Below, in pieces: positions 2,492 through 40,288 of a stretch of DNA of 47,407 nt. Source of the DNA: Chloroflexi bacterium OHK40 (lineage in GTDB: Bacteria; Chloroflexota; Chloroflexia; Chloroflexales; Chloroflexaceae); NCBI GenBank assembly GCA_004367505.1, contig SFCB01000106.1:1-47407 (forward strand). The letters are read 5' to 3'. Every line of letters begins with the position of its first letter. The stretch's first letter is position 1. The position numbers and the translations under genes are program-made. The notes under the pieces were generated by a model. The model was given only the letters and a program-made list of their open reading frames with translations. It was not told the DNA's origin and ran no database searches.

Positions 2492-3796
2492 TCAGGCGCG
2501 CAGCGCCTCACGCATAGCGGCGAGAGTCTGGTCGATCGCCTCCGGGGTGTGGGCGGTGCTCACGAAGCCGGCCTCGAACTGGGATGGCGCGAGGTAGACG
2601 CCCCGTTCACAAAGGGCCCAGAAGAAGCGCGCGTAGCGCGACGGATCGACCCAGCGCTTCGCCTCGGCGTAGCTGGTGACCCGCACGCCGGGCTGCGTGA
2701 GGAAGTAAAAGCCGAACATCGTGCCGACCTGGCCCACCTGGAGCGGCACGCCCGCCTCCTCACCGAGCTGGCGGATGCCGTCGGCCAGGCGCCGGGCGCT
2801 CGCCTCGGCGGCGGCGAAGGGCGCCCCACCATTGTCGAAGGCCGCGCGCAAGGTTGCGAGGCCGGCGGCCATCGCCAGGGGGTTGCCGGAGAGCGTACCG
2901 GCCTGGTACATCGGCCCGGCGGGCGCCACGAGCTGCAAGATCTCGCGGCGGCCGGCGTAGGCGCCCACGGGCAGGCCACCACCGATCACCTTGCCGAGGC
3001 AGGTGAGATCGGGGGTGAGGCCCCAGAGGCCCTGAGCGCCACCCGGGCTCACCCGGAAGCCTGTCATCACCTCGTCGAGGATGAGCAGGGCGCCATACTG
3101 GTGGGCAATGGCCTGCAGACCCTCCAGGAAGCCGGGTTCGGGCAGCACGAAGCCCATGTTGGCGGCGATCGGCTCAACAATGACGGCGGCGATCTGCTCG
3201 CCCTCGGCCGTGAAGATCTGGCGCACCGCCTCCAGATCGTTGTACTCGGCGGTGAGGGTGTTGGCGGCCGCGCCCTTCGTCACCCCCGGGCTATCGGGCA
3301 AGCCGAGGGTGGCTACACCGCTACCAGCCTGCACGAGCAGCATATCGGCGTGGCCGTGGTAGCAGCCACTGAACTTGAGGATCTTCTCGCGGCCGGTGAA
3401 GGCCCGCGCCAGGCGCAGGGCGCTCATGGTCGCCTCGGTGCCGGAGTTGACGAAGCGCACCTGTTCGAGGCCCGGCATGAGCTGAATCACCAGCGCGGCC
3501 AACTCCGTCTCCCGGGCCGTGGGCGCGCCGAAGCTGGTACCGCGCGCCGCCTGGGCGGCGATGGCCTCGACCACGGCGGGGTGAGCGTGGCCAAGGAGGA
3601 GCGGCCCCCAGGAGAGCACGTAGTCGAGGTAGCGGTGGCCGTCCTCGTCGAAGAGCCAGGCGCCCTCACCGCGACTGAAGAAGATGGGCGTGCCACCCAC
3701 GCCGCGAAAGGCGCGCACGGGCGAGTTGACGCCGCCGGGGATCAGCTGTTGCGCTTCGGCAAAGAGTGCTTTTGAGCGAGCATAACGATCATTCAT
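2492..3796 (-). CDS. hemL: Glutamate-1-semialdehyde 2,1-aminomutase
   Basis: HemL is the PLP enzyme that converts glutamate-1-semialdehyde, the product of HemA, to 5-aminolevulinate in the C5 pathway. The 434-residue product shows LIPGGVNSPVRAFRGVGG near the N terminus, LILDEVMTGFRV (PLP-phosphate/Asp region) and GKVIGGGLPVGAYAGR containing the Schiff-base lysine, then YQAGTLSGNPLAMAAG. I start it at the ATG at 3796 (MNDRYARSK); the open frame continues upstream to 3865, but that part merely translates a dispersed repeat. GGAG precedes the chosen ATG. It lies between hemE and hemF in the same orientation, 153 bases after hemE. Confidence 0.95.
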   Translation of the reverse strand: MNDRYARSKALFAEAQQLIPGGVNSPVRAFRGVGGTPIFFSRGEGAWLFDEDGHRYLDYVLSWGPLLLGHAHPAVVEAIAAQAARGTSFGAPTARETELAALVIQLMPGLEQVRFVNSGTEATMSALRLARAFTGREKILKFSGCYHGHADMLLVQAGSGVATLGLPDSPGVTKGAAANTLTAEYNDLEAVRQIFTAEGEQIAAVIVEPIAANMGFVLPEPGFLEGLQAIAHQYGALLILDEVMTGFRVSPGGAQGLWGLTPDLTCLGKVIGGGLPVGAYAGRREILQLVAPAGPMYQAGTLSGNPLAMAAGLATLRAAFDNGGAPFAAAEASARRLADGIRQLGEEAGVPLQVGQVGTMFGFYFLTQPGVRVTSYAEAKRWVDPSRYARFFWALCERGVYLAPSQFEAGFVSTAHTPEAIDQTLAAMREALRA

Positions 3797-3838
3797 GGAG
3801 CGCTCCGTTATTGCGGGGGACAGATATTCCATCGATGC

Positions 3839-3858
3839 GATGGCTCCGCAGCGGTTCG
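3839..3858 (-). repeat. Dispersed upstream repeat, hemL copy
   Basis: A 20-base core which on the minus strand reads CGAACCGCTGCGGAGCCATC. Closely related cores occur at 12370-12389 (upstream of hemG) and 37585-37604 (upstream of galT), always in the same orientation relative to the downstream gene and 30-45 bases before its start codon. The surrounding sequence is also partly alike. It may be a mobile promoter-like or RNA-level element; function unknown. Confidence 0.55.
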
Positions 3859-3949
3859 TTCGCACCTCCCACCGCGCTCACCTATCGCCAGGGAAGCTAT
3901 GGGGCCGTGGAACGGTTCCGGACCGTGCGTCGCAGCCACGCCATCCAGT

Positions 3950-5086
3950 TCAGGAGCGCCCGCTTGCAGCGCGGCGGGCGGTTGCGGCGGTACTGCCCCC
4001 TGTCACCCTGCCCTCCTGGGGCGGCCGATAGCTCTGCACAAACTCCACGAGCCGTTGCACGTGCTCCTCGGGCGTCTCGGTGAGGATGCCGTGGCCGACG
4101 TTGAAGATGTGACCTGGGCGTCCGGCAGCTTGATCGAGAATGGCCCGCGCACGGCGCTCGATCTCGGGCCAGGGGCCGTGGAGCGCCAGCGGATCGAGGT
4201 TGCCCTGCACCGCCACGTCGTAGCCGCAGTGGGCCCAGCCGTCCGCCAGGCGCACCCGCCAGTCGAGCCCCAGCACATCGGCGCCGGTCTCGCGCAGGAG
4301 CGGGAGCATGCCATTCATATCGGTGCCGAAGTAGACGACGGGGGGAGGGGCGGCGGGGGATGGCTCCTTGTCCCCATGTCCTTCGGCGATGGCCGCCCGA
4401 AATGCCGTGATCGCCGCCTGAACGTGGGGCAGCACATACTCGACGTAGTCATCGGGAGCGAGGGCCCCGGCCCAGGAATCAAAGATCTGCACCACGTCGG
4501 CGCCGGCGCGCACCTGGGCCGCCAGGTAGCGGGCAACGAGGTCGCTCAGCTTCGCCATCAGGGCGTGCCAGCTCTGCGGGTCGTGGTACATGAGGGCCTT
4601 GGTGCGGCGATACTCACGGCTACCGCCGCCCTCGATCGCGTAGCTGGCGAGGGTGAAGGGCGCGCCGCTGAAGCCGTAGAGCGCGATATCGGCGGGGAGC
4701 GCGCGGCGCACCATGCGCAGGGCCTCCAGGGTGTAGCCGGAGGTCTCCTCGGGGTCGTAGTCGCGCAGGGCGGCGATGTCGGCGGGCGTGCGGATGGGGT
4801 TATGGATGACGGGCCCCTCACCCTTCTCGAAGGTCAGGTGGATACCGAGCCCCTCCAGGGGAGGGAGGATATCCGCAAAGATGATCGCGGCGTCCATGCC
4901 GAAGGCCTCGATCGGCTGCAGCGTCACCTCGGCGGCCACCTCGGGCGTCTTGACCATCTGGAGGAAGCCATGCCGCTCCCGCACGGCGCGGTAGGCCGAC
5001 ATATAGCGGCCAGCCTGGCGCATCAGCCAGATGGGGGTGCGGTCGGTCGGTTCGCAGCGACAGGCCGCCAGGATGCGATTGGTCAT
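3950..5086 (-). CDS. hemE: Uroporphyrinogen decarboxylase
   Basis: HemE removes the four acetate carboxyls of uroporphyrinogen III to make coproporphyrinogen III. The 378-residue product has the N-terminal signature [13 protein letters not shown], with the substrate-binding arginines, then [18 protein letters not shown] and FNVGHGI in the expected order. The ATG at 5086 (MTNRIL) is chosen because GAGAGAG lies upstream and homologs begin here; 26 further in-frame codons upstream look non-conserved. Residues about 235-249 form a Gly/Glu/Pro-rich insert ([14 protein letters not shown]) whose DNA resembles a low-complexity insert in smc of this window. It is followed by hemL and preceded by hemB (62-base gap). 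Confidence 0.95.
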
Positions 5087-5148
5087 ACGGCTCTCTCTCG
5101 GTATCGGCAGGGAGGGGGCGTACGGGCGCAGCGCCATGGCGCTCCGGC

Positions 5149-6162
5149 TTAGCCCCGCAGCCACCGCACGGCGTCCCGGGCCCAGTAGGTGATGATCATG
5201 TCGGCACCGGCGCGGGCGATGGCGGTGAGGCTCTCCAGGGCCACCCGGCGCTCGTCGATCCAGCCGCGCTCGGCGGCGGCCTTGACCATGCTGTACTCGC
5301 CGCTCACCTGGTAGGCCGCCAGGGGCAGACTGAAGCGGTCCTTTACCTGGCGGATAATATCGAGGTAGGCAAGGGCAGGCTTGACCATGAGGATATCGGC
5401 GCCTTCGTCCACATCCAGGGCCACCTCGCGCAGCGCCTCGCGAGCATTGGCCGGGTCCATCTGGTACTGGCTGCGGTCGCCGAAGCTGGGCGGGCTCTCG
5501 GCGGCGTCGCGGAAGGGCCCGTAGAAGGCCGAGGCAAACTTGGCGGCGTAGCTCATGATCGCGGTGTGCTGGAGCCCGGCGCCGTCGAGAGCGCCACGGA
5601 TGGTGGCCACCATGCCATCGATCATGCCCGACGGGGCGATGATATCGGCGCCGGCCTGGGCGTGCACAACGGCGGCCTTGCCGAGTAACTCCAGGGTGGG
5701 GTCGTTGAGCAGGTAGCCCTCACCCAGAGCCGGGTTGTAGCCCTCGGTGCCGGGCACGTTGATCACCCCACAGTGGCCGTGGTCGGTGTACTCGCAGAAG
5801 CACATGTCGGAGATCACGAGCATGTCGGGCACGGCCCGCTTGATCGCGGCCGCCGCCTGCGGCACAATCCCCTCCGGATCGAAGTTCTCGCTGCCCAGGG
5901 CGTCTTTGTGGGCGGGGATGCCGAAGAGCAGCACGGCGGGGATGCCGAGCTCGTAGAGGGCCTCGGCCTCGCGGGCGGCCATATCCACCGAGAGCTGGGC
6001 GTGGCCGGGCATCGAGGCGATCGGGCGGCTGACGCCGCTACCGTGGCGGATGAAGAGCGGGGCGATCAGCTGCTCTACGCGCAGGGTCGTCTCGCGCACC
6101 AGGCCACGCAGCGCGGTGGTACGGCGCAGACGGCGGGGGCGGGCGGCGGGAAAGCTATTCAT
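5149..6162 (-). CDS. hemB: Delta-aminolevulinic acid dehydratase (porphobilinogen synthase)
   Basis: HemB condenses two ALA molecules to porphobilinogen. The 337-residue product carries the zinc-type metal site [16 protein letters not shown], with three cysteines at about residues 120-130, rather than the aspartate-rich Mg-type site. Both catalytic lysines are visible: [14 protein letters not shown] at about 205 and [11 protein letters not shown] at about 260. A classical zinc enzyme is therefore expected. It is flanked by hemD (60-base gap that holds a 13-bp hairpin repeat) and hemE. Confidence 0.96.
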
Positions 6163-6188
6163 CGGCGTTCCTCCTGGGAACCGGCGTA

Positions 6189-6217
6189 GTAGAGATGCCC
6201 CAGTGGGGCGTCTCTAC
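6189..6217. repeat. GAGACGCCCC palindromic repeat, copy 2
   Basis: A 13-bp inverted repeat: GTAGAGATGCCCC at 6189-6201, loop AGT, and GGGGCGTCTCTAC at 6205-6217. One position is a G-T wobble. It belongs to the same family as the element at 75-97. It lies in the 60-base gap between hemD and hemB, so it would fold within the operon mRNA and could affect processing or relative expression of hemB. Confidence 0.75.
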
Positions 6218-6222
6218 GCCCG

Positions 6223-7056
6223 TTAACACGAACCATCCGCCCCGCCCGCCCCGCGCCCCTCCACGTGAGCCACCAGGGCGGCCACCAGGCCCTCCTCGGT
6301 GGCTTCGTCCGCCACGAGGGTAGGCTCCAGGCCCAGCTCACGGCAGGTCGCGGCGGTGCTCGGGCCGATGCAGGCGATAATCAGGCGGCGGGCGAGCTCC
6401 AGGCCCGCCGGGCCTAGCTGGGCGGCCAGGAAGCGGGCCGTGGAGCCGCTCGTGAAGAGCAGGGCGTCGAGCGCCCCACGCTCGATCAGCGTCGCGAGCT
6501 CGGCGCCGCCCGGCGCCGGTACGGTACGGTAGGCCACCACCCGGTCCACGCGGGCGCCGGCGGCCCGCAGGCGCTCCTCCAGCTCCGGGCGGGCAATATC
6601 GGCGTTGGGCAGGAGCACCCGCCGCCCGGCCGGATCGCCCAGCGCATCGGCCAACTCGGCGCCGGAGAAGGAGGCAGGCACGACGGCGGGAGGGGCACCG
6701 AGTAGTGCGCCGCAGGCCGCCGCAGTGGCCGGGCCTACCGCGCCGATCTTCAGCGAGACGCGGCTCGAGAGGCGTGGGGCGCGCGCGCCGAGGGCGCTCG
6801 CCACGGCTTCGACCGCCGTCACGCTGGTGAGCAGCAGCCACTCGTACATCCCGGCCTCCAGGCGGCCCATGGCCTCCTCCAGCGCGACCGGGTCGGCCGG
6901 TGGGGCATAGGCAATCGTGGGGTGCAACACTGGCTCGGCCCCCAGGCCCCGCAGGCGGGCTGCCAGGCCCTCGCCACGGCCCTCGGCACGCGGGATCAGC
7001 AGGCGTAGCCCGCGCAAGGGCTGGGGATGCCCATGGTGCTGCCGGGGATCGCTCAT
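6223..7056 (-). CDS. hemD: Uroporphyrinogen-III synthase
   Basis: HemD closes hydroxymethylbilane with inversion of ring D to form uroporphyrinogen III. The family is poorly conserved in sequence, but the 277-residue product shows the two Rossmann-like HemD halves: LRLLIPRAEGRGEGLAARL near the N terminus, and LLFTSGSTARFLAAQL followed by IACIGPSTAATCRELG in the second half. The ATG at 7056 overlaps the hemC stop as ATGA, so the two are probably translationally coupled. The open frame continues far upstream, but that part is antisense-like overlap with hemC. Position between hemC and hemB supports the call. Confidence 0.93.
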   Translation of the reverse strand: MSDPRQHHGHPQPLRGLRLLIPRAEGRGEGLAARLRGLGAEPVLHPTIAYAPPADPVALEEAMGRLEAGMYEWLLLTSVTAVEAVASALGARAPRLSSRVSLKIGAVGPATAAACGALLGAPPAVVPASFSGAELADALGDPAGRRVLLPNADIARPELEERLRAAGARVDRVVAYRTVPAPGGAELATLIERGALDALLFTSGSTARFLAAQLGPAGLELARRLIIACIGPSTAATCRELGLEPTLVADEATEEGLVAALVAHVEGRGAGGADGSC

Positions 7057-8114
7057 CGGGTACTCGCTCTCAGATTCTCCGCCGAAGACTCGGGCAAAGC
7101 CTGGTGGCCTGTCGCCAGAACGGCCAGGATCGCGCCGGCGCCACGGGTGAGTAATTCGTCGGCCAGAGCCGTGCCGAGCGTTTCCGGCTCGCCGGGGCTG
7201 CCAGCCAGTTCGCCCCGCACCACCGTGGCGCCATCCAGCGAACCGACCAGCCCGCGCAGGAGCAGGCTGGCGCCCTCGGCGCTGGCATGAGCCGCGATCG
7301 GCACCTGGCACCCGCCCTCCAGCCGGCGCAGAAAGGCCCGCTCGGCAAGGGCCGCAGCCCTGGTTGGCCCGTGGTCGAGCGGCGCCAGCAGCGCGCGCGT
7401 GGCGGCATCGCCGGCGCGACACTCGATGGCGAGGGTGCCCTGGGCCACCGCCGGGAGCATCTGCTCCGCCGGGAGGAGGTGAGCCACAAAAGCCGCGCCA
7501 TCGCTCACCACGCTCCCGTCCGCCCGCAGCAGGCCGAGCCGCTCCAGGCCGGCCGCAGCGAGCACCAGGGCATCGTACTGGCCCTCGGCGAGCTTGCGCA
7601 GCCGCGTATCGACATTGCCCCGCACATCGCGCAGCGTCAGGTCGGGACGCAGCGCGCGGAGCTGGCAGGCCCGGCGCAGCGAACTCGTACCGACGATCGC
7701 ACCCTGGGCGAGTGCGCCCTCAAACGGGGCACGCTCCCCGGCGCGCGCCTCGGCGCGGCTGTCGGCGCGCTGGTCGCCCCGCGCGGGCAGCACCAGCACA
7801 TCGCGCGGGTCGGCCCGCTCCGGAAAGGCGCCGAGCACCAGACCGTCGGGCAGGAGCGACGGCAGATCCTTACACGAGTGGACGCAGAGGTCCACCTCGT
7901 TGGCGAGCAAGGCGTGCTCCAGCTCCTTGACGAAGAGGCCCTTATCGCCCACGGCGGAGAGGGCCACATCGAGCACACGGTCGCCCCTGGTGGTGATCAC
8001 CCGAAGCTCAACCTCCAGGTCGGGGTGGAGCGCGGTGAGCCGGGCGGCAACCATCTCCGACTGCGCCAGGGCAAGCTTGCTGCCACGGGTACCGAGTGTC
8101 AGGCGACGGGCCAT
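7053..8114 (-). CDS. hemC: Porphobilinogen deaminase (hydroxymethylbilane synthase)
   Basis: HemC polymerises four porphobilinogens to hydroxymethylbilane on a dipyrromethane cofactor. The 353-residue product has LTLGTRGSKLALAQSEM at its start, DLCVHSCKDLPSLLPDGL (active-site Asp region), GTSSLRRACQLRALRPDL, and the cofactor-attachment cysteine in LRRLEGGCQVPIAAHA. The ATG at 8114 is preferred over a GTG one codon upstream. The stop overlaps the hemD start by four bases. It is somewhat longer than the usual 310 residues owing to an Ala/Arg-rich insert (about residues 110-130). Confidence 0.96.
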   Translation of the reverse strand: MARRLTLGTRGSKLALAQSEMVAARLTALHPDLEVELRVITTRGDRVLDVALSAVGDKGLFVKELEHALLANEVDLCVHSCKDLPSLLPDGLVLGAFPERADPRDVLVLPARGDQRADSRAEARAGERAPFEGALAQGAIVGTSSLRRACQLRALRPDLTLRDVRGNVDTRLRKLAEGQYDALVLAAAGLERLGLLRADGSVVSDGAAFVAHLLPAEQMLPAVAQGTLAIECRAGDAATRALLAPLDHGPTRAAALAERAFLRRLEGGCQVPIAAHASAEGASLLLRGLVGSLDGATVVRGELAGSPGEPETLGTALADELLTRGAGAILAVLATGHQALPESSAENLRASTR

Positions 8115-8186
8115 CACAGTACCAGGTTTCTACGTACGACAGGCGACGGGCAGAGGCGGCTCTGCTCGTGACCGCGCGTCGTAACG

Positions 8187-9491
8187 CTACACGGACTCCA
8201 GGTTGAACAGCTCGGTCACCATCGCGGCGTAGCGCTGGCCCTCCCCCTGGGCGGCGGCATCGCGCAGGCGGCGCGTCGGTGTGTGGAGCAGCTTGTTGAC
8301 GATACTGCGGGTGAGGCCCTCCACCACGCTGCGCTGCTCAGGCGAGAGATTGGCAAGACGACGCAGGGCCCGTTCCAGCTCGGCGTTGCGCAGGGCCTCG
8401 GCGTGCTCACGCAGCATCATGAGGGCCGGCACTGCCTCCTGGGTGCGCAACCATGCCTCGAAGGCATTCACCTCCTCGACGGCGATTGCGGCGGCCCGCT
8501 CGGCGGCGGCAGCGCGCTGGCCGAGGGTCGCCCGGACCACCTCCTGCAGGTCGTCCACCGTGCAGAGATGGACACCCGGGAGGGTAGCCACCTCGTGGTG
8601 AATATCGCGGGGCACCGCCAGGTCGATCAGCAGCATCTCAGGAGCGGCGCCGCGCTGCGCGTGCGCGCGAGCCCTGGCTTCGAGCGCGTCGGCGATATGC
8701 TTCTTATAGATGATCGGCACCGGGGCCGCCGTAGAGCTGATCAGAATATCGGTGCGGGCCAGAGCCTCAGGCAGATCGTCAAACGTGAGAGCCTCGGCCC
8801 CATAGCGCTCGGCAAGCTCGCGGGTGCGAGCCAGGGTCCGGTTGACGATCATGAGCCGGTCGGCGCCGTTGGCGAGCAGGTTCTGGGCGGCCAGCTCACT
8901 CACCTCGCCACCACCCACCAGCAACACCGCGCGTCCCTTCAGTTCGCCGAGGCGCCGCCGGGCCAGCTCCACACCAGCCTGGGAGACGCTCGCCGCGCCC
9001 TGGCCCAGCGCCGTCTCGGTGCGGGCCCGCTTTCCCGCAGTGAGAGCGTGCTGGAGCAGCCGGTGCAGCACCGGGCCAATACTGCCGACAGCCTGGGCGT
9101 GCTCGAAGGCCTGGCGCACCTGGCCCTGGATCTGGGCCTCGCCCAGTACCAGCGAGCGCAGGCCCGCCGCGGTGGCGCAGACGTGGTGCGCCACCGCTTC
9201 ACCAGTGAGGAAGAAGAGCGCATGGACGAACTCGTGCTCGGCGAGCCCGTGAAACGCGCCCAGAAAATCCACCAGGCTCTGGGCGGTAGTCGTGCCGTGA
9301 GCAACCCCATAGATCTCCACCCGATTGCAGGTAGAGAGGATGACCGCCTCCGCCAGGGGCGGCGGCATACCGTTCTGCGGCTGCGTGAGCTGGCTCAGAG
9401 CGGCCGTAATATCGCTCGGCGTAAAGGCCAGGCGTTCGCGCAGCTCTACCGGGGCGGTGGTGTGGTCGAGACCGGCAAGGATGAGCTTCAT
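8187..9491 (-). CDS. hemA: Glutamyl-tRNA reductase
   Basis: HemA reduces glutamyl-tRNA(Glu) with NADPH to glutamate-1-semialdehyde, the committed step of the C5 pathway. The 434-residue product shows [17 protein letters not shown] at the N terminus, the nucleophilic cysteine in [21 protein letters not shown], the NADPH-binding [18 protein letters not shown] and the dimerisation segment at the C terminus. The start is the ATG at 9491 ([12 protein letters not shown]), preceded by AAAGGG; the longer upstream frame translates the leader repeats. The gene has its own strong promoter (9554-9582), so the seven-gene hemA-C-D-B-E-L-F run can be transcribed independently of the bch genes upstream. Confidence 0.96.
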
Positions 9492-9498
9492 GCTCGGG

Positions 9499-9538
9499 CC
9501 CTTTGAAACCTGTTGAATCCCTTGCAAACCCTGGCAAA
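9499..9538 (-). repeat. Four 10-bp tandem repeats in the hemA leader
   Basis: On the minus strand the hemA 5' leader holds four consecutive 10-base units: TTTGCCAGGG, TTTGCAAGGG, ATTCAACAGG and TTTCAAAGGG. Each carries a purine-rich AGG/AGGG, and the last one supplies the ribosome-binding site. The units lie between the predicted transcription start and the ATG. A regulatory role is inference. Confidence 0.7.
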
Positions 9539-9553
9539 TCTCAGCGCTTGTGC

Positions 9554-9582
9554 ACGGTATCACACGTTCGGAAGGCTGTCAA
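9554..9582 (-). promoter_or_regulatory. hemA promoter
   Basis: On the minus strand a perfect -35 TTGACA (9582-9577) is followed after 17 bases by TACCGT (9559-9554), which is preceded by TGA, giving an extended -10. This is one of the best vegetative-type promoters in the window. It would start transcription about 55 bases before the hemA ATG. Confidence 0.75.
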
Positions 9583-30819: not shown

Positions 30820-30875
30820 GCGCTGAAGCGCACGGCGATAGGGCGGCGACGCCCGCCGGCGCGGGGGCTTGCGGG
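30820..30875 (+). repeat. Dispersed G/C-rich repeat, copy A
   Basis: A 56-base element starting GCGCTGAAGC and containing the palindrome CGCCCGCCGGCGCGGG. It aligns without gaps to the reverse complement of 32865-32920 at 45 of 56 positions, and to 47239-47285 at about 38 of 46. It lies in the roughly 850-base gap between ygfZ and the caspase gene. Confidence 0.7.
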
Positions 30876-30878
30876 GGA

Positions 30879-31122
30879 ACCCAGCCCCCCGCGTTCCCGG
30901 GTGCACGCGGGGCTCGCCGGCGTCACTCCCTGGACGCCCGCCGGCGCGGGCGTGACACCCATGCGCCGATGTGTCGTTCCCGCGCACGCGGGCACCCAGC
31001 CCCCCGCGTTCCCGGGTGCACGCGGGGCTCGCCGGCGTCGCTCCCTGGACGCCCGCCGGCGCGGGCGTGACACCCATGCGCCGATGTGTCGTTCCCGCGC
31101 ACGCGGGAACCCAGCCCCCCGC
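30879..31122. repeat. 115-bp tandem repeat, two copies plus a fragment
   Basis: Two almost identical 115-bp units (30879-30993 and 30994-31108; about two differences, A/G in GTCRCTCCC and C/A before ACCCAG) are followed by the first 14 bases of a third. Each unit is rich in small palindromes, such as CCCGCCGGCGCGGGC and TTCCCGCGCACGCGGGAA. There are no unique spacers, so this is not a CRISPR array. The frames open through it are repeat artefacts. Together with copy A it fills most of the 30609-31462 gap. Confidence 0.85.
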
Positions 31123-31178
31123 CTGCGCGGGGGGCTGGCGTGCACGATGGGACGCCACACACGCGCGGTCACTCGCCC

Positions 31179-31207: not shown

Positions 31208-31462
31208 CTAACGTAATGGTGGTGCCATCAGCACCGCGATGGGTGACCACTGGTTCCGGTGCGCGCCGCCCACGGCGGCATCGCGGCGCGCGGGCTACCG
31301 CCTGAGGAAGCCGGCTTGCGCCGGCTCGCTCTGGCCTCGGCACGGTCGCGCGGTACCGCCGGAAGGTCGGCGTTTCCGCGCTGGTGGGGCCGGCTGCGCG
31401 CCTGGTGCACCATAGCAACACCAGAGCGGCGGCAATCGTCGGCAGCGAGGAGCAAGGGCGTG

Positions 31463-32773
31463 ATGGCAGCCTTCGAACGAGGCCGGGCACTGGTGGTGGG
31501 GGTAGGCGCCTACGGCGATCCGCGCTGGGACGTACCCCTGGCAGGGCGCGATGCGCGGGCACTCCACGCAGCGCTGATCGACCCCGAGGTGGGCGGATAT
31601 GATCCGGGCCGCACCGAACTGCTGCTCGATCAGACGGCGACCCGCGCGGAAGTATTGCTCGCCTTGCGTCGCCTGGCCGACCGCTGCGACGCCGAGAGTG
31701 TGGCGCTGGTGAGCTTCACCTGCCATGGTGCCGTCGGTACCGATGGGCTCTACTACCTGGCCACGGGCGACGCCCGCCTGACGCCCGCCCCGGACGAACG
31801 GGTGGCCCAGGGGAGTGGCCTGAGTGTGGCCGACCTGGCCCGTGCCCTGCGCGATATCCCCGCCCGCCAGGTGCTGCTGATCGTCAATGCTTGCTTCGCC
31901 GGCCATCTCGGCGCCACCCTCGGCGTCAACGGTATTGCCCCGGAGTTCGCCGATCGCGGCGTGGGCCAGATGCTGCCCGACGAGAGCGGCACGGAGCTGC
32001 TGGCCACCGGCGAGGGCCGGGCGATCATCACCGCCGCCCGCCAGAACCAGCGCTCCTACTTCAAGGCCGACGAGGCCCACAGCTACTTCGGCCAGGCCCT
32101 CCTCGATACACTGCGCGGGGGCGCCGGCGCCGGTGCCCTGGGCCTCTACGAGCTCTACACCAGCCTCTACCGCCAGGTGACAAGTGTTACCACACGGCGC
32201 CTGGGCCACGCCCAGGAGCCCGTGCTCACGGTGCTCCAGAACGCTGGCCCCTTCCCAGTCGCCCGCCCCGCTCGCGCCCACGGCGAGGGGCCACTCAGCC
32301 CAACCCCGCCACCCACGGCGGCCGTGCGGGAGGTGCCCCACGATATCGTGGCGGCGCTGGGCACGGGGGCCACGGCGATCAAGGCCGATCCGGGCAGCCG
32401 TGTGACAGTCGATAACCGTAAGCTGATCGACTTTGGCAACGCCACCGTGATGGGCGGCGTGACCATCGGCCAGGTTGCCGGCGGCGACATCATCAATGTG
32501 GGCGAACGCGACAACACGCCCGATCTTCCGCCCGACCCCCGCCAGCAACTCCCCATCCTGCGGGCCCGCGTGGAGGCGGCCCGTCACGTGGACGAAGGCG
32601 ATCGCGATGAGGCCGCCGCAAAGCTCGGCCTCGCCGAGAAGGCCCTGGCCCGCGGCGACAGCGCCCGCGCTCGCCGGAGTCTCGACGAGGCCCTCACGCT
32701 GCTCCGCGCCATGAACAACGGCTATATCACGAGCATCGTGCGCAAGCTGGAGGCCCTGGCCGCTCGAATCTAA
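31463..32773 (+). CDS. Caspase-like (peptidase C14) protein with C-terminal GGDIIN module
   Basis: A 436-residue protein. Residues about 1-245 form a prokaryotic caspase/metacaspase p20-like domain: ALVVGVGAYGD at the first strand, the catalytic His in SFTCHGA (about residue 92) and the catalytic Cys in LLIVNACFAGH (about 145). Then comes a Pro-rich linker. The segment TVDNRKLIDFGNATVMGGVT, then IGQVAGGDIINVG (about 312-345), resembles the short beta-repeats found in proteins of bacterial conflict systems. The C-terminal 85 residues form a TPR-like helical bundle (AAAKLGLAEKALARGDSARA). No NTPase is fused or adjacent. Caspase-like proteases of this type occur in defence and cell-death systems, in signalling and as orphans. 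The start at 31463 follows AGGAG by 11 bases; GTG just before it is an alternative. Confidence 0.85.
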   Translation: MAAFERGRALVVGVGAYGDPRWDVPLAGRDARALHAALIDPEVGGYDPGRTELLLDQTATRAEVLLALRRLADRCDAESVALVSFTCHGAVGTDGLYYLATGDARLTPAPDERVAQGSGLSVADLARALRDIPARQVLLIVNACFAGHLGATLGVNGIAPEFADRGVGQMLPDESGTELLATGEGRAIITAARQNQRSYFKADEAHSYFGQALLDTLRGGAGAGALGLYELYTSLYRQVTSVTTRRLGHAQEPVLTVLQNAGPFPVARPARAHGEGPLSPTPPPTAAVREVPHDIVAALGTGATAIKADPGSRVTVDNRKLIDFGNATVMGGVTIGQVAGGDIINVGERDNTPDLPPDPRQQLPILRARVEAARHVDEGDRDEAAAKLGLAEKALARGDSARARRSLDEALTLLRAMNNGYITSIVRKLEALAARI

Positions 32774-34957: not shown

Positions 34958-36406
34958 CTAATCCGCCCACCCCGCCCACGCCACCCCGGCGGCCATGGAG
35001 CCCGGCGAGGTGCCGCCGAGCACCCGGGCAGCCCGACCAGTGGCGGCACGATAGCGCGCGGCCACTTCGGCCACCGCTGCCTCGCTGTCGCGCCGGGCCA
35101 GTACCGCCACAGTGCCACCGCTGCCGCCGCCGGTGATCTTGGCGCCGTAGAGGCCGGCCCCCGCTCCCACCTCCCGCACCAGATCCACGAGCAAGTCGGT
35201 GCCATCGCTACCGAGGCCGCAGGCGCTGTAGCTCGCGTGGCTCTGCTCCATCAACTCGCCGAGCAGCCGTCGCTCTTCCTCACCCACGGCGCCCCCGGCC
35301 AGCAACGCGCGGAAGAGCCGCACTCGCTGCTGCTCATAGATCGGGTGGGCCGCGCAGGCGCGTACCGCGTAGGTTCTGGCAGGGTCCACGCGCGTCACCG
35401 TGTCGGTGATCCCGCCGTAGCGCGCCAGAAAGGCCGCCCCCTCAATCTGCTCCGGCACATGATCCCGGTAGCGGCGCTCCCACTCCGCCGGGGTAAGGTT
35501 TGCCAGGTAGCCGCCCCAGCGCGGATCATCCACCGTCACCCGGCCCGGCCCGGCAGGCGCCACGCCCAGCCCGGCCAACTCGGCCACGATCCGGTAGCCC
35601 ATGAAGGCGCCCACCCGCACCGCTCCGTAGTCGCTCCCACCCACGGCGTGGCGGAGCCCCGAGTCGATGCCCCAGATCGCCAGACCTTCCGGCAGGGCCA
35701 CCGGAGGCTCCAACTCGGCCGGCTGGCAACGCAGGGCCAGCAGCCGGCCGCCATCACCACAGGCGACCGTCATCTGGTCCATTACGCCACACGGCGCGCC
35801 AACCACCAGATTCTCCGCCCGCTGGCAGAGCACGGCCAACTCGCGGCCCTCCAGCGCGACGCCGAAGAGCGCCGCCGCCGCCCGTAACACGGCAACTTCG
35901 ATCGCGGCCGAGGAACTTACTCCTTTGCCAGCGGGCACCGTCGAGGCCACCAGAATGCGCAGCCCCCCGTTGATGGTCATGCCCCGCGCCCGTGCCAGCA
36001 CCAGCAGGGGCCCGATTACATAGGCCGCCCAGGCCTGTGCTGGCACGCCTGTGAGCAGGCTGTGGGCCGCAGCTTCGTCGAGGGGCACCCCACCAGGCGC
36101 GAGCGCCGCGAGATCGACGCGCGCCTCCAGCGGACGGGCACCTGGCTCTTCAGGGAGGCTCCGCACATGGATAGCGGGAGCCTCGGAGCGCTGCACGGCG
36201 GCAAAGGTGGCACAGGCCAGGGGCAACTCCAGCACCAGAGCGCCGGAGTAGTCGGCGATCCCACCCATCAGATCAAGGCGGCCCGGCGCGCGGGCCACAG
36301 CGATCGGCACGCCGGGGTCGAACAGGTCACTGTTAGCGTTGATCGCCGCAAGGAATCCCGGCAAGTCGGGCAGCTCAGCGGCCGGTGGTTGGATCAGGCG
36401 CCACAT
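34958..36406 (-). CDS. GHMP-family sugar kinase, L-arabinokinase/galactokinase type
   Basis: A 482-residue GHMP kinase. The N-terminal signature is [19 protein letters not shown] (about residue 40), where classical galactokinases have GRxNLIGEHxDYN; the GGIADYSG form is the one I know from plant L-arabinokinase (ARA1) and related bacterial proteins. The phosphate-binding loop is [17 protein letters not shown] (about 170) and the third GHMP motif is [15 protein letters not shown] (about 430). It makes a sugar-1-phosphate from galactose or L-arabinose. galT lies directly upstream (99-base gap) and a GH51 arabinofuranosidase sits on the other side of the regulator, so either substrate is plausible. 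The ATG at 36406 is chosen because GGAGGA precedes it; the longer frame upstream lacks conserved sequence. Confidence 0.85.
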
Positions 36407-36505
36407 CGGGGGGGGTCCTCCAGCAACTTCACAAGCGTTCAGCAGCTCGCGCGGTGCCACCTGGCACGCCCCATCGCCTGGGGAGCAACGCGGGAGCATC
36501 GGAGA

Positions 36506-37555
36506 TCACGCAACCGCCTCGCGATAGTGGATGGCCGGGAGCGCCCGGAGCTCAGCGGCCTTCTCCTCGGGCGCCGTATCGCTCAGGAAATTGCCGCCGC
36601 CGATCTCAGGGCCAGCCAGGTACTTCAGCGTATTGGGGCGGCGCAAGGGCGGCAGAAACCCGATGAAGGCGTGAAAATCGCCGTAGTCGCCGCCATCGGT
36701 GGGCGCCTGGTGTAGCGGCATCACATAGGGGAATGGCTGGCGCCAGAGGTTATCGTAGCGCACCGTCACCGCCTTCAAGCCACGGGCCAGGCTCTCCACC
36801 TCAGCATCGCTCAGCGCATACAGATGAGGCACACTGCGGCGGGGCGCCAGGTAGACCTCATAGGCATAGCGCGCAAAGTAGGGCACAAAGGCGATCGTAT
36901 GCTCATCCTCGTAGATCACCCGCCGCCCATCACGCTGCTCGGCGGCGATAATCTCGGCGAAGAGCGCCCGCCCGGTCTCCTGGCGGTAGCGCCGCTGAGC
37001 CACAAGCTCGGTATCGAAGGTCTTCCAGGTAAAGTTCGTGGCATAAATCTGGCCGTGGGGGTGGGGATTACTCACCCCCACGGCCTCGCCCTTATTCTCA
37101 AAGATCAGCACCTGGCGCACCTCCGGACGCGCGCCGAGATCAAACGTCTCGCGCTGCCAGGTGCCAACGATCGCGGTGATCGCGGCGTGATCCATCTCGG
37201 CCAGCGTCAGGTCGTGGCGCGGACCGTAGCAGATCACCCGGGCCCGGCCCTCGGCACGACGCGCGCGGTCGGGCGACGCGGGCGCCACTGGCTCGGGCGC
37301 GTCGGGGCCAACGCATGGGTGATCGTTATCGAACACATACACGCCGCTATAGGCCGGGTTCCGGGCGCCACTCACGCGCGTGTTGCCAGGGCAGAGATAG
37401 CAGTCGGGCAGGTATGGTGGGGGCGGAGGCTCGGGGTCAACGAGCGTCTGGCCCACCCAGGGCCGGCCCTGACGGTGCGCCGCGACGATCACCCACTCCT
37501 CGCGCAGGGGATGCCAGCGCTCCTCCCAGCGCCCCCGAAGATCCTCACGGTTCAT
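36506..37555 (-). CDS. galT: Galactose-1-phosphate uridylyltransferase
   Basis: GalT exchanges UMP between UDP-glucose and galactose-1-phosphate in the Leloir pathway. The 349-residue product has the zinc-site pair CYLCPGN (about residue 52), the catalytic histidine triad in [10 protein letters not shown] (about 165) and the C-terminal [15 protein letters not shown] and [11 protein letters not shown] blocks. The ATG at 37555 ([10 protein letters not shown]) follows GGGGTGGAG; a GTG three codons upstream is possible. It precedes the sugar kinase and is divergent from the DeoR-type regulator. A dispersed repeat lies 30 bases upstream. Given the neighbours, a side role with L-arabinose-1-phosphate is conceivable but unproven. 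Confidence 0.94.
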
Positions 37556-37584
37556 AGGCTCCACCCCTCATACCACAGCAACCT

Positions 37585-37604
37585 GATGGCTCCCCAACGG
37601 TTCG
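37585..37604 (-). repeat. Dispersed upstream repeat, galT copy
   Basis: Minus-strand core CGAACCGTTGGGGAGCCATC, followed by CAGGTTG as in the hemG copy (12370-12389). It is 30 bases before the galT start, the same distance as at hemG. Confidence 0.55.
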
Positions 37605-37814
37605 TCCTCGCCTTCCAGACCGCCACACCCCGATCACCCGTGTGGCGCTCGGGAACGGTAGCGGTGACACCGTGGGAAGCGGCGTGGCCACGGTCATCTG
37701 CCGCCACCTCCCGCGCCCCCTCCCCGTTCGCGCCCGCGCCCTGCATGTTCGCAATAGTCGCACGTTGTGGCGCTTCCGTCAAGAGCGAAATGCTCGAACA
37801 AGCATCATTACTGC

Positions 37815-37862
37815 ACGTTCGCGCAAGATTTGCTTGACGTTCGCGCATCGCCCGGGTATAGT
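37815..37862 (+). promoter_or_regulatory. DeoR-regulator promoter with direct-repeat operator
   Basis: TTGACG (37834-37839) and TATAGT (37857-37862) are 17 bases apart. The 11-mer ACGTTCGCGCA occurs at 37815-37825 and again at 37837-37847, exactly 22 bp (two helical turns) later, the second copy covering the -35. A partial relative (ATGTTCGCAA) lies near 37745. DeoR-family proteins often bind repeated TTCG-containing sites, so autoregulation is likely. Confidence 0.6.
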
Positions 37863-37904
37863 GAGCGGCAGCAGGGCGGCACACACGCAGGCAGCGAGGA
37901 ACCG

Positions 37905-38681
37905 ATGGGCAAGGCGGAGGCCCGCTCCGCATTCATCGTGCAGGAGCTTACGCGCCACGGCGCCGTGACAGTCGAGGCCCTGGCCGCACAGCTGGCGGTG
38001 GACAGCTCCACCATCCGGCGCGACCTGGAGCGCCTTGAGCGGCAGCGCATCCTGCGGCGAGTCCACGGCGGCGCCGTCTACGCCGATTCGCTCACCTACG
38101 CCCACGATCTCACCTTCCAGGGCAACATGGGCAAGCGGGTAGCGGAGAAGACCCGCATCGCCGCAGCCGCCGCCAGCCTGATCGCTCCCGGCGATACGAT
38201 CGCGCTCTCCCCCGGCAGTACCACTACCTTCCTCGCCCGCGCCATTCGCCAACAGCCGATCCGCCCGCTCACCGTCGTCACCAACGCCGTGAACATTGCC
38301 GTGGAGCTCAACGCCATCCCCGAGCTCACTCTGGTACTCACCGGCGGCATGCAGCTGCCCGATTTCTTCGCCCTCGTCGGGCCGATCGCCGAGCAGACTC
38401 TGGGCGACCTCTACACCAACCTGGCCTTCGTCGGCATGCACGGCGTGAGCGCTGAGCACGGGCTTACCGGCCCCAACCAGCTTGAGGCGCTCACCTTCCG
38501 CGCCACGATGCGCCGCAGCCGCCGGACGATCGTGCTCGCCGATAGCTCCAAGCTCGGCCAGGTGGCCCTCTACCGAATCGCCCCGATTGAGGCCGCCCAG
38601 CATCTCATCACCGACGCCCCGGACGATCACCCGGAGCTGCGCGCCATCGCCGAGCGCGGCATCACCATCCAGTCTGTCTGA
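37905..38681 (+). CDS. DeoR-family transcriptional regulator
   Basis: A 258-residue regulator with an N-terminal helix-turn-helix (AVTVEALAAQLAVDSSTIRR, about 18-38, then RRVHGGAVY) and a C-terminal sugar-phosphate-sensing isomerase-like domain (LSPGSTTTFLARAI; VTNAVNIAVEL; LADSSKLGQVALYRIAPI). The family usually represses sugar-use genes and is relieved by a phosphorylated sugar. Here the natural inducer would be a sugar phosphate from the adjacent kinase. The ATG at 37905 follows GAGGA. It is divergent from galT and about 100 bases before the GH51 gene. Confidence 0.93.
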   Translation: MGKAEARSAFIVQELTRHGAVTVEALAAQLAVDSSTIRRDLERLERQRILRRVHGGAVYADSLTYAHDLTFQGNMGKRVAEKTRIAAAAASLIAPGDTIALSPGSTTTFLARAIRQQPIRPLTVVTNAVNIAVELNAIPELTLVLTGGMQLPDFFALVGPIAEQTLGDLYTNLAFVGMHGVSAEHGLTGPNQLEALTFRATMRRSRRTIVLADSSKLGQVALYRIAPIEAAQHLITDAPDDHPELRAIAERGITIQSV

Positions 38682-38779: not shown

Positions 38780-40288
38780 ATGCCCACCACCGGCCCCTCC
38801 GCCCGCATCAGCCTCGACAACGAGCGCACGATCGCCCCGATCTCGCCGCTGCTCTTCGGCGGATTCGCCGAGCATATGGGTCGCTGCGTCTACGGCGGCC
38901 TGTACGACCCCGGCTCGGCTCAGGCTGATGAGCGCGGCTTTCGCCGTGATGTGCAGGCCGCCCTGCGCGAGATGGGCATCAGCGTGCTACGCTACCCCGG
39001 CGGCAACTTTCTCAGTGGCTACCACTGGCGCGACGGCGTAGGCCCCCGGGAGCAACGCCCTCGCCGCCGCGACCTGGCATGGCAGTCGATCGAGACGAAC
39101 CAGTTCGGCACCGACGAGTTCCTCGCCTACTGCAAGACGATCGGCGCCGCGCCGATGCTCGGCGTCAACCTGGGCACCGGCACGATCGAGGAGGCCGGCG
39201 CTCTGGTCGAGTACTGCAACGCCCCCTCCGGTACCGCCACAGCCGACATGCGGGTGGCCAATGGCCACCCCGAACCCTACGGCGTGCGCTACTGGTGCCT
39301 CGGCAACGAGATGGACGGCCCGTGGCAGATCGGCCACCTCGACGCCCACGCCTACGCCGTCAAGGCCCGCGAGGCCGCCAAGATTATGCGCTGGCACGAT
39401 CCCGCGATCAAGCTCATTCTCTGCGGCTCCTCCCACACCGAGATGCCCAGCTACCCCGAGTGGGACCGGGTGGTGCTCGAGCACTGCTGGGACCAGGTTG
39501 ACTATCTCGCGCTTCACTATTACGCCACAAACTATGACAACGATACCGCCAGCTATCTCGCCTCGGCGGCCCAGTTCGAGCGCCAGGTGGACACCCTCGC
39601 GGGGCTGCTACGCTTCATGCAGGGCCGGCTTCGCTCGCGTCACAGCGTCAAGCTCTCCTGGGACGAGTGGAACGTCTGGTACAAGGACCGCTCGGGCCGG
39701 GGCAACTGGCAGGAAGCCCCGCCACTGAGTGAGGAGCAGTACAACCTGGAGGATGCCCTGGTTGTCGCCCAGTGGCTCAATGTCTTCCTGCGGCGCTGCG
39801 ATGTGCTGGAGATCGCCTGCCTGGCCCAGGTGGTCAATACGATCGCGCCACTCACCACCCGCGGCGATGCGCTGCTCCGCCAGACAACGTTCTACCCCTT
39901 CGTGATGGTCAGCCGCCACGCCGCCGGGGTCGCCCTCAGCCCACTGGTCGCCGCCCCCGAGCTCGAGACCGCGCGCTACGGCCCGCAGCCCCTGCTCGAC
40001 GTAGCGGCCAGCTACGCCGCCGACAGCGATCGCGGCGCTGTCTTTATCGTCAACCGCAGCCAGTCCGAGCCGCTGACGGCGGAGATCGCCTGGCGGGGCG
40101 TGGCTCCCCAGCGCGCCAGTACGATCATCAGGCTGGCCGGTAGCCACGTAAGGGCCGCCAACAGCTTCGAGCAGCCCGACACCATCGTTCCACGCCAGCT
40201 TCCGGGCGGCCCCATCCACGACGGCCGGCTGACGCTCGAGCTCCCGCCCCTCTCGTTCACCGTGGTGGCCACGGAGGGGTATCGCTGA
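38780..40288 (+). CDS. Alpha-L-arabinofuranosidase, GH51
   Basis: A 502-residue intracellular-type GH51 enzyme that releases L-arabinofuranose from arabino-oligosaccharides. Diagnostic sequences are [20 protein letters not shown] near the N terminus, [14 protein letters not shown], the acid/base glutamate in [11 protein letters not shown] (about residue 175) and the nucleophile glutamate in [11 protein letters not shown] (about 295). There is no signal peptide. The start at ATG 38780 follows GGGAG. Placement after the DeoR regulator and near the sugar kinase points to an arabinose-use module. Confidence 0.94.

Follow-up and report, generated by a model that had tools for sequence, protein, structure and literature searches.

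Which sugar is phosphorylated by a galactokinase-like enzyme whose sugar-binding motif departs from that of galactokinases, and what does such an enzyme do next to a galT gene and an arabinofuranosidase gene? The question is raised by a locus of Chloroflexi bacterium OHK40, located within the window, i.e., the whole stretch of 47,407 nucleotides analyzed here (contig SFCB01000106.1). L-arabinose is a major sugar of the plant cell wall, and, to our knowledge, the L-arabinose routes of bacteria comprise the AraBAD isomerization and the oxidative pathways. The original prediction for this locus was a salvage of L-arabinose via L-arabinose-1-phosphate to UDP-arabinose, which would operate instead of AraBAD.

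The kinase gene (34958..36406, minus strand) encodes a protein starting with MWRL; its frame is open up to an ATG at 36499. As initially claimed, the translated sequence displays GGIADYSG where galactokinases carry GEHTDYN. Sequence, Pfam matches, alignment and tree place the product among the GHMP-family sugar-1-kinases: GHMP_kinases_N (PF00288, 3.5e-18), GHMP_kinases_C (PF08544, 1.1e-6), and GalKase_gal_bdg (PF10509, 1.2e-5) were all matched above the cut-off. At the same time, the protein scored below the cut-off of every NCBIfam galactokinase model (best score of 148 bits vs. 499; 124 bits vs. 227 for TIGR00131). Its predicted structure (mean pLDDT 94) matched galactokinases at Z 41 (6gr2_B, 2.3 Å over 377 residues).

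The deviating motif is not a product of chance, since the motif Glu is replaced by Gly in 53/53 aligned sequences of the kinase family vs. its retention in 15/15 canonical galactokinases. The Glu-His/Tyr pair of galactokinases thus becomes Gly-Ile, with the Gly position invariant, and the catalytic Arg43 and Asp210 are conserved in the family together with the ATP loop. In the tree, a 100/100 branch separates the 15 canonical galactokinases from the GGIADYSG kinases. The Glu and His/Tyr of the galactokinase motif are, as we assume, the residues contacting the C6 hydroxyl, and the plant arabinokinase ARA1 presumably carries GGIADYSG as well. The Gly-Ile swap combined with intact catalytic residues fits a sugar lacking the C6 hydroxyl, and the enzyme is probably an L-arabinose 1-kinase. 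The nearest solved relative, “AbGHMP” (PDB 9ulx/9uly; E 1.9e-155 over 472 residues), shares the identical GGIADYSG, falls within the kinase-family tree, and is the sole solved structure in the family; no published function was found for it in the open-access subset of the literature.

Directly upstream of the kinase gene and on the same strand lies galT (36506..37555, minus strand; ATG at 37555, with the ORF extending to a GTG at 37564), the product of which scored 296 bits against TIGR00209 (cut-off 102) and is proposed to be a pentose-1-phosphate uridylyltransferase. The HPH nucleophile motif (HPHGQ in the window protein) and the zinc ligands (C52, C55, H115, H164, and H166 of the E. coli enzyme) are kept in 52/52 GalTs of the family, this one included. 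Among the residues of the glucose-1-phosphate site of the E. coli/human GalT (K311, F312, V314, Y316, E317, and Q323 in E. coli numbering), K311 and E317 are retained and the other four are altered, yielding the signature K-Y-L-A-G-P-E. This signature was dropped as a proof of pentose use: the GalTs from ordinary gal operons of Streptomyces alter three of these four residues too, and the two groups have part of the changes at 314, 316, and 323 in common. With the other GalT of the same genome (see below), the window GalT shares 44% identity, compared with 64–70% for the GalTs adjoining other kinases of the family.

A DeoR-family regulator, recognized by Pfam (37905..38681, plus strand; the ORF opens at 37767, with MGKAEARS at 37905 as the likely start), and a GH51 alpha-L-arabinofuranosidase (38780..40288, plus strand; ORF from 38759) are encoded on the strand opposite to the kinase and galT. 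The regulator is 59–63% identical to those adjoining the kinase clusters of other Chloroflexota (Ktedonobacterial clusters), and the region 37556..37904 between the divergent galT and deoR genes likely harbors their promoter/operator, as suggested by the layout. The GH51 enzyme is ArfA-like, scoring 598 bits vs. the ArfA cut-off of 625, and shares 44% identity with its GH51 counterpart in the complete cluster at the locus L132 described below. The grouping of the kinase with galT, a DeoR regulator, and GH51 was therefore corroborated by the Pfam/NCBIfam matches within the window. Elsewhere in the window, a putative caspase-like (metacaspase) protein with a C-terminal extension reads ALVVGVGAYGD, SFTCHG, and NACFAG (31259-32773, plus strand), a tandem 115-base repeat resides between genes (30872-31131; two complete units at 97%, followed by the initial 30 bases of another), and an apparent run of heme biosynthesis genes (hemL, hemE, hemB, hemC, and hemA, named by eye) occupies 2492-9563 on the minus strand.

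The original prediction also proposed a search of the genome for a standard galK as well as for araA and araB. In the assembly of the same organism (G000; 6.9 Mb, 100% complete), a canonical GEHTDYN galactokinase, 30% identical to the window kinase, is encoded on contig C253, a second, canonical-type GalT (52% identical to that of E. coli) on C30, and a single true GalE on C299; therefore, the organism possesses a complete canonical galactose set besides the window pair. The genome search revealed no L-arabinose isomerase gene (araA) and nothing over the cut-off for L-ribulokinase. The genome does contain an operon composed of LacI, a substrate-binding protein, permeases, GH3, XylA, and XylB (C37; LacI and the permeases were named by eye) and a phosphatase of the type found in the kinase clusters of other bacteria (C42; 539 bits). 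Hence, phosphatase, galE, and xylAB are all present on other contigs, unlinked to the window.

The phosphatase gene on C42 adjoins a degenerate paralog of the GGIADYSG kinase, not the window kinase. This conserved pseudokinase (L092, 259-1602, minus strand) was also encountered in the same bacterial family at L108, L109, L110, L112, L113, L114, L115, and L118; the catalytic Arg is replaced by Trp and the catalytic Asp by Gly in 9/9 sequences, and the SSSA and GGG loops are lost. The pseudokinases are 49–62% identical across genomes and form a single 100/100 clade within the kinase family; perhaps they serve as a sugar sensor or as a partner of the phosphatase. In the same bacterial family, a Glyoxalase_3/VOC-family gene (L092, 3016-3780, minus strand, and its relatives) recurs just upstream of the phosphatase gene, a setting that differs from the arabinose cluster context.

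A scan of species genomes showed that the kinase family comprises at least 67 loci with 44–70% identity over the best segment. They are spread over about ten phyla, namely Chloroflexota, Acidobacteriota, Gemmatimonadota, Planctomycetota, Verrucomicrobiota, Armatimonadota-like lines, Myxococcota, Actinomycetota, and candidate phyla. Many of these loci come from metagenome bins, with short contigs in many of them, and some large Ktedonobacterial genomes have high contamination estimates; one locus belongs to the cultured Ktedonobacteria representative Dictyobacter aurantiacus (L012), whose cluster is composed of DeoR, galE, galT, phosphatase, and kinase. The usual gene order is galT, a phosphatase of the inositol monophosphatase (IMPase) fold, and the kinase. 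Among the 55 loci with at least 2.4 kb of upstream sequence, galT is located just upstream of the kinase in 41, the phosphatase is adjacent to it in 35, and the full order is kept in 31 (median gaps of 30 and 72 bp). The 13 control loci of canonical galK recovered by the same scan contained galT and galE only, and the phosphatase at none of them.

The other recurrent neighbors across the family loci are galE (20), GH51 (11), sugar-binding proteins (8), ABC proteins (8), xylA (7), xylB (4), GH127 (4), and mutarotase (4), along with GH43. The representative XylA and XylB neighbors are true members of their families by the equivalog cut-off, and xylA is not within the retrieved flanks of most loci. 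Two clusters are particularly instructive. At L132, ABC permeases are followed by GH51 (above the ArfA cut-off), galE, galT, phosphatase, kinase, and GH43, which by its gene content is an arabinan cluster, and at L133 the order is DeoR, galT, phosphatase, kinase, and xylA.

The cluster phosphatase is a divergent protein of the IMPase fold. Its model (pLDDT 89) matched SuhB at Z 26.4 (2.3 Å over 252 residues), and an archaeal IMPase/FBPase was matched at Z 26, too. The DPIDGT metal motif is invariant in 32/32 sequences, as are E81, D106, I108, D109, and D281. No curated equivalog fits this protein; the phosphatase of the locus L054 matches Pfam PF00459, and the copy from the OHK40 genome has no Pfam match.

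Co-occurrence of these genes was assessed with the Fisher test in a fixed sample of 389 Chloroflexota genomes, 22 with the kinase family and 367 without it. The xylose isomerase XylA was found in 22/22 kinase-bearing genomes vs. 67/367 of the others (9e-16; 11/11 vs. 40/209 at the genus level, 4e-8), and the phosphatase in 21/22 vs. 24/367 (3e-21; 3e-10 at the genus level). The 24 genomes with the phosphatase and no intact kinase belong mostly to the same bacterial family as OHK40, so the phosphatase should have another use or partner there. No association was seen for araA (2/22 vs. 30/367, p 0.7). Since araA does not track the kinase, the link with xylA is not simply a mark of general arabinose users; still, it may partly mirror general sugar users. 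The suggested replacement of AraBAD thus holds for OHK40, which lacks araA, and fails as a general rule: araA is neither enriched nor depleted among the carriers, and the kinase was rejected as a general substitute for it.

Overall, the best explanation, and a rather probable one on the strength of these comparisons, is that a catabolic pathway of L-arabinose, built on the Leloir pattern, has the window kinase and GalT as the enzymes of its two initial steps. On balance, we also lean toward the broader view that about ten phyla harbor a hitherto undescribed mode of bacterial L-arabinose breakdown copying the Leloir pathway, which would proceed via arabinose-1-phosphate, UDP-arabinose, UDP-xylose, and xylose-1-phosphate to a dedicated xylose-1-phosphate phosphatase and on to XylA/XylB. 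The open-access subset of the literature yielded no account of a comparable bacterial arabinokinase, nor of this arabinose-to-xylose route in any organism.

From the genes present, their families and catalytic residues, their conserved order, and their co-occurrence, we infer the substrates, the direction of the flux, and the regulation as follows. L-arabinose would be freed from arabinan or arabino-oligosaccharides by GH51 and converted by the kinase to L-arabinose-1-phosphate, from which the GalT paralog, using UDP-xylose (or UDP-glucose), would form UDP-L-arabinopyranose. L-arabinopyranose and D-xylopyranose are C4 epimers, just like galactose and glucose, and GalE could accordingly epimerize UDP-L-arabinopyranose at C4 to UDP-xylose. 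On loading the next arabinose-1-phosphate, GalT would give off xylose-1-phosphate, the UDP-pentoses acting as catalytic carriers. In the galactose pathway, phosphoglucomutase normally takes care of glucose-1-phosphate; this type of step requires a C6, which pentoses in the pyranose form lack. Hydrolysis of xylose-1-phosphate to D-xylose by the IMPase-fold enzyme, followed by conversion to xylulose-5-phosphate by XylA and XylB, would be a chemically sensible exit. Control of the divergent genes presumably falls to the DeoR regulator. A single Leloir-like scheme of this kind would leave none of the recurrent cluster members unexplained.

The endpoint is where this scheme parts from the plant-like salvage, in which L-arabinose would pass through arabinose-1-phosphate to UDP-L-arabinose destined for arabinose-containing glycans, the phosphatase merely trimming surplus sugar-1-phosphate and the xylAB neighbors being coincidental. 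A kinase and a uridylyltransferase are indeed enough to make UDP-arabinose, and plant arabinokinases have been the subject of published work (PMC12281597, PMC5897480): in plants, ARA1 and USP convert L-arabinose to UDP-arabinose (PMC12281597). Yet the neighbors are degradative (GH51, GH127, GH43, sugar importers, xylA, and xylB), xylA is present in 22/22 kinase-bearing genomes, and an unsystematic look at the annotated neighbors disclosed no glycosyltransferase or UDP-arabinose mutase, which makes salvage unlikely. Phosphatase, galE, xylA, and xylB at the related loci, together with xylA in every sampled kinase genome, point to breakdown via UDP-xylose rather than nucleotide-sugar salvage. Of the route anticipated originally, the part that stands is a GalK-fold kinase distinct from galactokinase, its GalT partner, ties to arabinofuranosidases (GH51, GH127, and GH43) in several lineages, and a genome without araA; for its plant-like UDP-arabinose endpoint, the support is weaker than for breakdown.

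It is hardly likely that the kinase and GalT constitute a second galactose pair of the Leloir type, with broad specificity, serving the galactose derived from arabinogalactan. Such a pair would agree with the GalK fold and the retained catalytic Arg and Asp, with GalT and GalE being Leloir enzymes, and with the co-occurrence of galactose and arabinose in plant polymers. The sugar-motif Glu and His/Tyr are, however, replaced throughout the kinase family, galactose needs no phosphatase, and arabinosidases and xylA are among the neighbors. Moreover, a canonical GalK separate from the kinase is encoded in 21/22 kinase-bearing Chloroflexota genomes (E 1e-76 or better), and OHK40 has its own canonical-type GalT; as the main reading, replacement of galactokinase was therefore rejected. 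A kinase acting on another sugar with C6 lacking or altered (e.g., D-fucose or a galacturonate-type sugar), with incidental arabinosidases, is very unlikely. In its favor, the loss of Glu and His alters the sugar pocket and alone does not name the sugar; against it, the arabinosidase, xylA, and xylB neighbors in several lineages favor a C5 sugar ending in xylose.

Provided that it is true, the Leloir-type breakdown of L-arabinose would explain arabinose use by bacteria possessing arabinofuranosidases but lacking araA. It would also assign functions to three widespread genes that the models used here name loosely or leave unnamed (the “galactokinase-like” GHMP kinase, the GalT paralog, and the IMPase-fold phosphatase), and it would represent the re-use of an entire pathway via a one-carbon shift of the substrate.

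With bacterial AraBAD, the proposed route would share the substrate and the end product, xylulose-5-phosphate, but it would bypass the isomerization of arabinose to ribulose, and OHK40 lacks araA; it would also cost one more phosphorylation, because the first phosphate is hydrolyzed. The plant salvage by ARA1 and UDP-sugar pyrophosphorylase has the same proposed first product, L-arabinose-1-phosphate. It differs in relying on USP and not on a GalT-type exchange and in yielding UDP-arabinose for the cell wall, whereas the route proposed here is bacterial, operon-encoded, and would be catabolic, with xylose as its end product. A further parallel is the Leloir pathway itself (GalK, GalT, and GalE), with the same three enzyme folds, the same sequence of 1-kinase, uridylyl exchange, and C4 epimerization of the UDP-sugar, and similarly conserved galT-kinase operons. 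Unlike in that pathway, the kinase and GalT are separate paralogs found beside the galactose enzymes, an IMPase-fold phosphatase would take the place of the phosphoglucomutase step, and the cluster is linked to arabinosidases, XylA, and XylB.
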